A stretch of 48,549 nt of DNA from Brachybacterium nesterenkovii. Its GTDB lineage: Bacteria > Actinomycetota > Actinomycetes > Actinomycetales > Dermabacteraceae. Position 1 is the first letter of the stretch; every line of letters begins with the position of its first letter. Below are positions 1 to 48,549 of the stretch, one piece after another. The stretch spans positions 1 through 48,549 of the forward strand of contig NZ_FWFG01000010.1 of NCBI RefSeq assembly GCF_900163655.1, written 5' to 3'. The position numbers were made by a program, and so were the translations under genes. The notes beneath the pieces were generated by a model that saw only the letters and a program-made list of their open reading frames with translations, was not told where the DNA came from and ran no database searches.

Positions 1-58
1 CAGCACCAACCCTGCCAGCCAGCCCCGGGCCGGCCACCACGAACACTTACAGGCGGAT

Positions 59-1471
59 TCAGTCGAGGGGCCGGTAGGCGATCCCGAGGGCGTCGAGCCG
101 ATCCAGATGCGCCTCGAGGCGCTCTCGGAACTCGTCGAAGGACTGCTCGGGGCTGCCCCAGGCGCGCTCGGCGAGAGCGCACAGCCGCGGGAAGGCCATG
201 TACTGCAGGTGGGCGGCGTCGGCGATGTGCTCGGTCCACAGCTGGGCCTGGAACCCGAGCACGAGGGCGCGCTGCTCCTCGGTGAGGGAGGCGGGCAGCA
301 GGTCGGCGGTGTAGACGTCCTCGAGGCTGCTGACGTGGTCGGTGATCGCGAGGGGCTCGTCCGCGGACGACGACTGCGGGTGGTCGAAGTACAGGACGTC
401 CGAGGTCGCCACGACGGTGCGGAAGCCGCGGGAGGTGGCCTCCGCGATGCCGGCGGGGCCGCGCCAGTTCATGACCACGGTGGTGTCGGGCAGGTGGGTC
501 TCGAGGACCTCGTCCCAGGCCACGGGCGTCTTGCCCTTGTCGCTCAGCACTTCCGCGGCGTGCTCGATGAAGCGTCCCTGGATCTCGGAGACCCGCGTGA
601 AGCCCCACTCGTTCATCCGCTCCCGGGCGGCGGGCGAGCGCTCCCACTCGGTGCGCGGGCACTCGTCGCCGCCGATGTGCAGGAACGGGGCGGGGAAGAT
701 GTCGGCGACCTGGGAGAGGACGTCCCGCAGGAACGTGAAGACCTCGTCGGAGACGCCGAGCACGTGGTCGGAGACGCCCCAGACCTCGCGGACGCCGATC
801 TCGGCGCCGGCGACGTTGCCGAGCTCGGGGTAGGAGGCGATCGCGGCCTGCATGTGCCCGGGCAGGTCGATCTCGGGGACGATCATGACGCCGCGGCGGC
901 TCGCGTAGTCCACGAGGCCGCGCAGCTGGTCCTGGGTGTAGAAGCCGCCGTGGCGCTCGCCGTCGTAGACGCGATCGGCCCCATCCTCGGTGTAGCGGCC
1001 CACGAGGGTGCGGTCGCGGAACGCCCCGACCTCGGTCAGACGCGGGTAGCCCTTGATCTCGACGCGCCAGCCCTGATCATCGGTCAGGTGCAGGTGCAGG
1101 ATGTTCAGGCGGTGCAGCGCCATCGCGTCGATCATCGTCTCGAGGTCGGAGACGGGGAAGAAATGACGGGCGACGTCGATGTGCAGGCCGCGCCAGGCGT
1201 ACTTCGGGGAGTCGGAGATCGTGACGCACGGGATCGGCCCGTCGGTCCCGGCGATGATCTGCGCGAACGTGTTGCGGCCGTCCGCGAGCGCCGCCTCGCT
1301 GCCCGCGGTGAGGGAGGCGCCCGCCGGGGAGATCGACAGCGCGTACTCGGTGCGCGACAGGTCCGAGCTGATGCCGACCGACAGCTCGCTCCACGGATCC
1401 GGGCTCTCCCAGGTCCCGCTGGACCAGACGACGGACCGGGGGAGGGGGACGAGGCTGATGGGGTCGGACAT
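59..1471 (-). CDS. Glycoside hydrolase family 20 beta-N-acetylhexosaminidase
   Basis: This 470-aa protein should remove terminal beta-linked GlcNAc or GalNAc residues from chito-oligosaccharides or glycoconjugates. A short GH20b-like N-terminal domain (to about residue 85) precedes the barrel, which carries HLTDDQGW near 128, the PEIDLPGHM strand near 199 and the catalytic pair Asp269-Glu270 in HIGGDE. Later substrate-site pieces are VAWDE, MNWRG and LWTEHI. No signal peptide is visible, so it is probably cytoplasmic. The ATG at 1471 is preceded by GAGGAG at a short distance; the open frame runs much further upstream, but that part is low-complexity and has no homology I recognise. It seems monocistronic. 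Substrate is inferred from the family only. Confidence 0.93.
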   Translation of the reverse strand: MSDPISLVPLPRSVVWSSGTWESPDPWSELSVGISSDLSRTEYALSISPAGASLTAGSEAALADGRNTFAQIIAGTDGPIPCVTISDSPKYAWRGLHIDVARHFFPVSDLETMIDAMALHRLNILHLHLTDDQGWRVEIKGYPRLTEVGAFRDRTLVGRYTEDGADRVYDGERHGGFYTQDQLRGLVDYASRRGVMIVPEIDLPGHMQAAIASYPELGNVAGAEIGVREVWGVSDHVLGVSDEVFTFLRDVLSQVADIFPAPFLHIGGDECPRTEWERSPAARERMNEWGFTRVSEIQGRFIEHAAEVLSDKGKTPVAWDEVLETHLPDTTVVMNWRGPAGIAEATSRGFRTVVATSDVLYFDHPQSSSADEPLAITDHVSSLEDVYTADLLPASLTEEQRALVLGFQAQLWTEHIADAAHLQYMAFPRLCALAERAWGSPEQSFDEFRERLEAHLDRLDALGIAYRPLD

Positions 1472-45646: not shown

Positions 45647-46807
45647 CTACAGTCGCGCCGTCGGCGGCCGCTGGCCGTGGTCGCGCGCCACGACGATCGG
45701 CTCCTGCGCGGCGATGACCTCGACGGTCGCCGCCTCTGCGGTCTCCGTCTCGGCCTGGTCGTCCCCGCCGCCGAGCGGCACGGCGACGGCCAGCTCGGCA
45801 TCCAGCGGCACGGCCCGCTTGACCATCGCCAGCGCGATCGGTCCCAGGTCCGCGTGCACCGCGCCGGTGGTCACGACGCCCACGTCCTTGGCCCCCAGGA
45901 GCACCCGCGCGCCCGCCGTCGCGGCGACGTCCTGCGAGCCGTCGAGGTGCAGCATCACCATGCGCCGCGGCGGCTGGCCCAGGTTCAGCACCTTGGCCAC
46001 GGTCTCCTGGCCGCGGTAGCAGCCCTTGGCGGTGTGCACCGCGGTGCGCAGCAGGTCCACCTCGTGGGGGATGGTGCGCTCGTCGATCTCGAGCACCTGG
46101 CGCACGCGGTGCGAGGCCACGCGCAGCGCCTCCGCGGCGAGCATGCCCGCGAGGTGCTCGGGCCGCCACGCGAGCGCCTCGAGCGCGGGCGCCTCGCAGA
46201 CGGCGAGGGTCCAGGGGGTGGGATCCTCGGGGTCGGGCCCATAGGCGACGCCACCGGGCATGACCGTGGGGTGGTGCTCGGTCCAGACGGCCACGGGGGC
46301 GGGCAGCAGCAGCCCGGCGTCGGCCAGCACTCCTGCGGCCGGGGCCACGGCACCGAGAACCCGCAGGTCGTCACGATCGACCAGCTCCACCCGGGCGGCG
46401 AAACGCATGCGCTCGAGGTACCCGCGCAGTCCCGCGCGCGTCCCGGGGTCGCAGATCAGCAGCAGCGAGCCGTCGGCGGGCACGGCCACGGCGGCCAGAT
46501 GCTCCACCCGGCCCTGCGGGGACAGCACCGCGAGCGCGCTCGAGTCCCCGGGCGCCAGGGCGTCGAGCACCTGCGAGGTCACCGTGGTCATCCACGAGCG
46601 GTGGTCGGCGCCGGAGACCTGCAGGATCTCCAGCTGGCCCATATCGACGACGGAGCGTCCGGCCATAAGGCGCCGCTGCTCGCGCAGCAGCGCCCCGTAG
46701 TGCGCGGGCACGGCGGCGTCGGGGCCGGGCAGGTGGACGGCGTCGGTGCGCAGCAGCGGGCTCACAGCACGGGCGGCATCGCTCTCAGGCGCGCTGTTCT
46801 CAGGCAC
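45647..46807 (-). CDS. ygfZ: YgfZ-family folate-binding protein
   Basis: A 386-aa GcvT-like protein involved in iron-sulfur cluster maintenance. The diagnostic K-G-C-Y-R-G-Q-E motif with its Cys lies near residue 263, preceded by EIDERTIPHEVDLL. The C-terminal ~100 residues hold the beta-barrel. The start is a GTG at 46807, inside the FABP stop region (8-nt overlap), so the two are coupled. The pair YgfZ and FABP-like heme protein also occurs in mycobacteria (Rv0811c, Rv0813c). Confidence 0.93.
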   Translation of the reverse strand: MPENSAPESDAARAVSPLLRTDAVHLPGPDAAVPAHYGALLREQRRLMAGRSVVDMGQLEILQVSGADHRSWMTTVTSQVLDALAPGDSSALAVLSPQGRVEHLAAVAVPADGSLLLICDPGTRAGLRGYLERMRFAARVELVDRDDLRVLGAVAPAAGVLADAGLLLPAPVAVWTEHHPTVMPGGVAYGPDPEDPTPWTLAVCEAPALEALAWRPEHLAGMLAAEALRVASHRVRQVLEIDERTIPHEVDLLRTAVHTAKGCYRGQETVAKVLNLGQPPRRMVMLHLDGSQDVAATAGARVLLGAKDVGVVTTGAVHADLGPIALAMVKRAVPLDAELAVAVPLGGGDDQAETETAEAATVEVIAAQEPIVVARDHGQRPPTARL

Positions 46808-47459
46808 GGTCGAGCTCCGCGGACATCCATGTCGTCAGCGGCTCACCCTCGGCGGCGCGGTCGATGAGCCACATGAGGCGACCGCCGACGAGACCGAACA
46901 TGCGCGTGGTGCGCTCGTGGCCCGGATGGGGACCGGTCCGGCCCACATGGTCCGCGGCGAGCTGGATGCGCGGTCCGCGCACCTCACCGGCGAAGACCTC
47001 GACGGTGCCCCGGTCGTCCTCGATGCGCGCCTCGAGCTGATAGGAGACGATCGCGGCGGGGGAGCCGGGCTTCGCGGCCGCGGCCGCCTCGAGGTCCTGG
47101 CCGGGCACGGGGCCCAGCACGCGCCACGTGCCCTTCTCGGAGATCAGCAGGCGGCGCTCGAGCGCGGCGTCATCGGCGCTCCGATCCGCGGCGTCCTCCG
47201 CCTCCGGATCGGCCGGGCCGTTCGCGAACACGGAGGTGGGCGGCAGCGGCGGGGGAGCGTCCAGCACCCAGGTGCGCATGGACCATGCGAGCGTGCCGTC
47301 CCCGGCGTCGCGGGCGCTCAGCTCCTGCTCGATGCGGCGGCCCTGCCCCTCGCCGTCCTCGGCGGACAGCTGCACGGCGCCGGTGCCGCGCCAGGAGCCC
47401 ACGAGCCAGGCGAGCGGGTACAGGGAGGGGTGGAGGTCCGCGTCCAGCGTGATCGGCAT
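46800..47459 (-). CDS. FABP/nitrobindin-like heme-binding protein (DUF1794)
   Basis: A 219-aa beta-barrel protein of the nitrobindin family. The N-terminal signature W-L-V-G-S-W-R-G-T-G (about 18-27) is present. The proximal heme His is expected in the C-terminal region (ERTTRMFGLVGGRLMW area). An acidic insert near residues 80-100 is longer than usual. In the family such barrels bind heme and isomerise peroxynitrite. It lies between the 34-aa membrane protein and ygfZ in one operon. Confidence 0.88.
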   Translation of the reverse strand: MPITLDADLHPSLYPLAWLVGSWRGTGAVQLSAEDGEGQGRRIEQELSARDAGDGTLAWSMRTWVLDAPPPLPPTSVFANGPADPEAEDAADRSADDAALERRLLISEKGTWRVLGPVPGQDLEAAAAAKPGSPAAIVSYQLEARIEDDRGTVEVFAGEVRGPRIQLAADHVGRTGPHPGHERTTRMFGLVGGRLMWLIDRAAEGEPLTTWMSAELDRA

Positions 47460-47462
47460 GGA

Positions 47463-47567
47463 TCAGCCCCGGGTGAACAGGCGGGAGATGACCAGGACGG
47501 CGAAGGCGGCGGTGCCCAGGCCCACGAGGGCGACGAGGACGAGGAAGAAGATCGACATGGCGCTCAT
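47463..47567 (-). CDS. 34-aa single-pass membrane protein
   Basis: A very small protein: M-S-A-M-S, a hydrophobic helix of about 24 residues (IFFLVLVALVGLGTAAFAVL), then V-I-S-R-L-F-T-R-G. The start fits a leaderless transcript, with TAGGAT seven bases upstream. The gene ends 3 nt before the FABP start, so it leads the operon 34-aa protein, FABP, YgfZ. It may be a helper of an envelope process; no family is known to me. Confidence 0.7.
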   Translation of the reverse strand: MSAMSIFFLVLVALVGLGTAAFAVLVISRLFTRG

Positions 47568-47574
47568 GGCCCCG

Positions 47575-47580
47575 ATCCTA
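47575..47580 (-). promoter_or_regulatory. Leaderless -10 for the 34-aa protein operon
   Basis: TAGGAT on the minus strand, seven bases before the ATG at 47567. Confidence 0.5.
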
Positions 47581-47592
47581 ACCGGCGCGGCC

Positions 47593-48378
47593 TCAGCCCA
47601 ACAGGTGCGCGACCACCCGCAGCGCCAGCAGGACGATCACCCCGGCGGTCGCGACGGGGGCCGCTCCCACCGCGAGGGAGGGCACGCTGCGGCGGGCCGC
47701 GAGCGCAGACCCCAGCAGCGCGTGGGAGCTCGCGGCGCCGACGCCGATCGCGGCCCCGACGAGCAGGGCCGGCACCGGGCCGAGCGGGCCGGCGCCGGGG
47801 ACGACGGCGGGCATCGCCGCGGAGACCGCGGCGCAGGTGGCCGCGGAGGCGAGGATCGCGAGCGGAACCGTGACGGCTCCGCGCAGCGGCAGCGCGAGCA
47901 GCAGGAGCGCGACGGCCAGCCCCAGGGCGCCGGCCGTCACGAGCGACGGGCCCTCGCCGAGCCTCGTCGCGTCCATCTGCGCCCGCACCCAGCAGCCCGC
48001 GAGCGCCGTCAGCACGGAGCCGGCCACGGTGGCGGTGAGGGAGGCGGTGAGGCCGGTGCGGTCGCGGCGCAGCATCTGATGGGCGAAGGAGCCGACGATC
48101 CCGAGCGCGCAGGCCGCGGCGATCGACTCCGTCGAGGACAGCGCCCCGGGGGTGAGCAGTCCGAGCACCGCGCTTGCGGTGCCCGCGAGGATCATGACGA
48201 TCCGGGTCCCCAGCGGGGAGTCGAGCTCGAGCAGAGAGGGCCAGCCGATCGCGGTGAGCACCACGACCGCGAGGGTCGCGACGAGCATCGCCGACGGGGC
48301 GAGGGGGCCCACGAGCGACACGAGCGCGAGCACGAGCGCGAGGACGGCACCGAGGGGCGCCCGCACGGTGGGGGTCAT
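47593..48378 (-). CDS. Polytopic membrane protein of unknown function
   Basis: A 261-aa very hydrophobic protein with roughly eight membrane helices and short loops (the longest polar loop, LRRDRTG, is near the middle). It resembles permease-like hypothetical proteins, but I do not recognise the family. The ATG at 48378 has GGGAGG four bases upstream; the open frame continues upstream into low-complexity sequence. It is the last gene before the contig end. Confidence 0.75.
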   Translation of the reverse strand: MTPTVRAPLGAVLALVLALVSLVGPLAPSAMLVATLAVVVLTAIGWPSLLELDSPLGTRIVMILAGTASAVLGLLTPGALSSTESIAAACALGIVGSFAHQMLRRDRTGLTASLTATVAGSVLTALAGCWVRAQMDATRLGEGPSLVTAGALGLAVALLLLALPLRGAVTVPLAILASAATCAAVSAAMPAVVPGAGPLGPVPALLVGAAIGVGAASSHALLGSALAARRSVPSLAVGAAPVATAGVIVLLALRVVAHLLG

Positions 48379-48497
48379 CGGTCCTCCCTCGGTGCGGCGC
48401 GCGGACTCTCCGGGCTCCGGGGCCTCCGTGCGTCGGGTGCGCGGACGGCCACTAGAGTTGAAGTCTACGAGGCGAGGACGCCCCACCCCACCTGGAC

Positions 48498-48549
48498 CAG
48501 TCGCTTATACCCATCTCCGAGCCCACGAGACGCGTAGTAATCTCGTATG
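48498..48549 (+). other. Illumina Nextera adapter read-through (not genomic)
   Basis: 48498-48516 matches the 19-bp Tn5 mosaic end at 16 positions. 48517-48531 is exactly the Nextera sequence CCGAGCCCACGAGAC. 48532-48539 (GCGTAGTA) has the length and place of an i7 index. 48540-48549 is ATCTCGTATG, the beginning of the P7 part. The genomic insert therefore ends at about 48497 or slightly earlier. Confidence 0.96.

Follow-up and report, generated by a model that had tools for sequence, protein, structure and literature searches.

The window analysed here, 48,549 nucleotides in length, comprises the whole of one contig (C48) in an assembly of 3,021,972 bases and 119 contigs, and the question that it raises is whether its last 52 bases belong to the bacterial chromosome. 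Bases 48498–48549 correspond to the Nextera i7 arm in reverse complement, with the parts in order and without gaps. Excluding the sample index, 41 of the 44 fixed adapter positions match. On the forward strand, positions 48498–48516 hold the mosaic end as its reverse complement with three substitutions (16/19 matching), followed by the remainder of the read-2 primer sequence, also reverse-complemented, at 48517–48531 (15/15), the i7 sample index GCGTAGTA at 48532–48539, and the P7 part, again reverse-complemented and limited to its first 10 bases, ATCTCGTATG, at 48540–48549 (10/10). All three mismatches lie in the mosaic end, the other fixed positions being clean. The four parts that the original prediction had read in this order, mosaic end, read-2 primer, 8-base index and start of P7, are therefore all present. 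The index belongs to the known Nextera set: in the tabulated part of PMC7589761, GCGTAGTA appears among the Nextera XT v2 index adapters as N719-B, although N719 is coupled there to a different primer overhang and not to the Nextera read-2 primer.

The likeness is far beyond what genomic DNA would be expected to yield by accident. With up to three mismatches allowed, a 34-base pattern comprising the mosaic end and read-2 parts has a single match in the window, and none of 100 dinucleotide-preserving shuffles contains it. The binomial chance of 41 or more matches in 44 at one place is approximately 1e-21 with equal base frequencies, and approximately 1e-14 if every position is given the frequency of the window's commonest base. 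In PMC6969025, the same 34-base string is used for read clipping under another kit name, and a literature search counted 45 papers that contain it; a table footnote in PMC10898089 names adaptors among common contaminants. An Rfam search of positions 47000–48549 returned no match. We are as good as certain that the 52 terminal bases are leftover laboratory sequencing adapter carrying a sample barcode and are not bacterial DNA.

Adapter-bearing ends were sought throughout the assembly by pattern, allowing two mismatches in the mosaic end and three in either the i7 or the i5 arm. The mosaic end was matched at seven places, the i7 arm at seven and the i5 arm at four, and Nextera adapter is present at at least eight of the 238 contig ends. 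Eight is a lower bound, as a pattern search misses ends with more mismatches or with a short adapter stub. Four ends are of the i7 type (C48, C79, C2 and C17), and all four carry GCGTAGTA. Of the i5-type ends, C11 and C27 carry AGAGGATA, which we take to be the reverse complement of S503; C101 carries AGAGGAAA, differing from AGAGGATA by one base, and C63 ends before the index. Among 88 loci, an exact search for the read-2 part, any eight bases and ATCTCGTATG was positive in 6, each a piece of C48 itself, because C79, C2 and C17 are mismatched in this segment.

The adapter on C79 is the most complete, running through the whole P7 part and then 10 A and 55 G to the contig end, with one mismatch in 58 fixed positions. 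Its terminal G run is the sole run of 18 or more G in the assembly on either strand; poly-G is expected when a two-colour instrument reads beyond the end of the molecule. The last 119 bases of C2 and positions 1–119 of C17 form identical ends, each consisting of 50 bases of adapter and 69 other bases; over the last 3,000 bases compared, the two contigs share no further sequence. The identical end has the look of a residual assembly-graph overlap, and C2 and C17 were accordingly counted as one event. The sequences preceding the common 119 bases are unrelated, and an assembly mis-join may lie at one of the two junctions. Matches of the i7 arm with three mismatches in the interior of C21, C34 and C109, and one of the i5 arm, also with three mismatches and interior (C2:50895–50913), were dismissed as chance; a reversed control pattern in the i5-arm search likewise gave one match, which places interior matches with three mismatches at the level of chance.

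What follows base 48497 in the genome is indicated by another contig, C101, which was chosen through gene order in relatives. In the related genome G012, a long plus-strand frame that includes a GNAT-like protein follows a match to TAGAGTTGAAGTCTACGAGGC, and a similar start is found in G020. The G012 protein has a single match in our genome at E ≤ 1e-10, on the minus strand of C101 (23750–24622, 69% identity), and the C101 protein is mycothiol synthase MshD by the NCBIfam cut-off (242.6 versus 163.1 bits). The start of mshD lies 46 bases from the end of C101. In the direction of mshD, the first bases of C101 are ACCCCACCTGGAC, which agree at 13 of 13 positions with the last genomic bases of the window (48485–48497, plus strand); from 48498 on, C101 differs from the window. 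Since C101 departs exactly where the window becomes adapter, the boundary falls between 48497 and 48498, and the adapter start originally proposed at 48498 is exact to the base. The suspicion that the bases just before it might be of low quality is not borne out, given the agreement of all 13 with the end of C101.

The 13-mer ACCCCACCTGGAC occurs once in the window and has a chance of approximately 3e-8 at one given place on base composition, and a BLAST comparison of 250 by 400 bases gave E = 0.001 for the overlap. C101 was absent from the matches of a BLAST search with 48100–48549 because the overlap is merely 13 bases, and a 23-base pattern taken from 48443–48465 found the window as its sole match in the genome. 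We conclude that the genuine sequence beyond 48497 continues in another contig of the same assembly and that C48 and C101 are probably neighbours, overlapping by 13 bases across the mshD start. Whereas an independent assembly carrying the same 52 bases inside the chromosome would have told against the original prediction, C101 presents the opposite, though it comes from the same assembly and is not independent. A single Tn5 cut common to the ends of C48 and C101 would give an overlap of 9 bases and is not supported by the 13 found.

The DNA ahead of mshD is itself conserved. TAGAGTTGAAGTCTACGAGGC (48453–48473 of the window) is matched at 19 of 21 positions in G012 and, among the relatives compared, is conserved upstream of mshD in three (G012, G020 and G009); it may form part of the mshD promoter. 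Similarity to the window extends to 48471 in G020 and G009; in G019, among the matches listed, the alignment stops before the TAGAGTTGAAGTCTACGAGGC region. With the overlap joined, the computed distance from AGTCTACGAG to the mshD start is 69 bases here, compared with 63 in G020, 62 in G009 and 100 in G012.

Three other origins of the terminal 52 bases were weighed against a leftover adapter of this library. The mosaic end is derived from Tn5 ends, and its match at 16 of 19 bases might suggest that a real Tn5 or IS50 end, or a mini-transposon, had entered the chromosome here. Over the 19 positions of 48498–48516, however, the IS50 outside end has 6 differences and the inside end 7, compared with 3 for the synthetic mosaic end, so that neither natural end is found there. 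Moreover, this stretch leads directly into the read-2 primer, the sample index and the start of P7, and C101 runs on beyond 48497 with no mosaic end. We consider such an insertion extremely improbable. An adapter from another library, introduced by index hopping or cross-sample carry-over, would be compatible with the adapter string taken alone. It is nonetheless very improbable, since the same i7 index is present at all four i7-type ends, two of the three index-bearing i5-type ends have AGAGGATA with the third one base away, and the adapters are all attached to contigs of this assembly. For a chance similarity of genomic DNA we found no point in favour, and the shuffles, the binomial estimates and the recurrence of the string at other contig ends reduce its probability to a negligible level. 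The earlier attribution to assembly contamination is thus upheld by the shared GCGTAGTA, the i5 arm at four further ends, the listed index and the divergence of C101 at 48498.

As to how leftover adapter came to stand at the end of C48, the likely route is untrimmed read-through of a short insert. A Tn5-tagmented library fragment would have ended at base 48497, and the sequencer would have read beyond the short insert into the i7 arm, through mosaic end, read-2 primer, index N719 and P7. With the adapter left untrimmed, the assembler would then have carried the contig on along this read tail once real coverage gave out, a course of events that presupposes thin coverage here and failed trimming. 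The mismatches in the adapter tails may bear on the latter. Seven distinct tails (C48, C2, C11, C101, C27, C63 and C79; C17 was omitted, being identical to C2) have 20 mismatches to the reference, index included, of which 13 are T>A, an excess with a probability of approximately 2e-9 under a simple null of equal error rates, although errors within one assembly are perhaps not independent. The bias suggests read-tail errors, which may explain the missed trimming; yet C79, with one mismatch in 58, was also kept, and loss of trimming through error does not account for it. That a systematic read-tail error spared the adapter from trimming and so left it standing at contig ends is, to our mind, a tentative idea and rather doubtful. 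Two further points weigh against the explanation as a whole, namely that 3 of 19 mosaic-end bases differ and that the overlap with C101, a contig selected by gene order in relatives, spans merely 13 bases.

The practical consequences are a matter of data hygiene only: C48 is to be cut after 48497, and the seven other adapter-bearing contig ends call for a check. The open reading frames 47128–48537 and 48152–48547, both on the plus strand, run into the adapter and are spurious within 48498–48549, in keeping with the earlier advice that nothing be annotated there. The likely real genes nearby are all on the minus strand: 47593–48378, with a start of our choosing and no Pfam or NCBIfam family, 46800–47459, with a THAP4-like heme-binding domain, and 45647–46807, with an aminomethyltransferase folate-binding domain. 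At the other extremity, window positions 1–62 match C31:424–484 at 98%; a 23-base pattern from 38–60, with up to three mismatches, found the window only, perhaps owing to a one-base difference in length.

A leftover adapter at a contig end is an ordinary and well-known artefact, and no biology is left open in these 52 bases. Searched with the window's last 63 bases at E ≤ 1e-5, 50,697 phage records yielded 23 matching entries and 72,556 plasmid records yielded 3, and the spread of these matches over unrelated hosts fits a laboratory sequence. In Escherichia phage vB_EcoM_G4507 (MK327946.1, 76408–77064), an adapter-like match spans the gap between two coding sequences that are both named baseplate hub subunit and tail lysozyme; the two may be a single gene broken apart in the annotation by leftover adapter.

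Within the family, the i7 arm was found with up to three mismatches in 3 of 47 genomes, namely our own and two of the same genus, G006 and G014. In G014 (C3:1287600–1288000), the index slot holds CGAGGCTG and the arm lies in the contig interior, two bases before N; in G006 (C1:1–400), it lies near the contig start behind garbled sequence, and the index slot is garbled as well. The closest known counterpart of the C48 end is the Illumina Nextera XT v2 i7 adapter (N719), which it resembles in the order of its parts, in 41 of 44 fixed positions and in its listed index, and from which it differs in its three mosaic-end substitutions and in stopping 10 bases into the P7 part.
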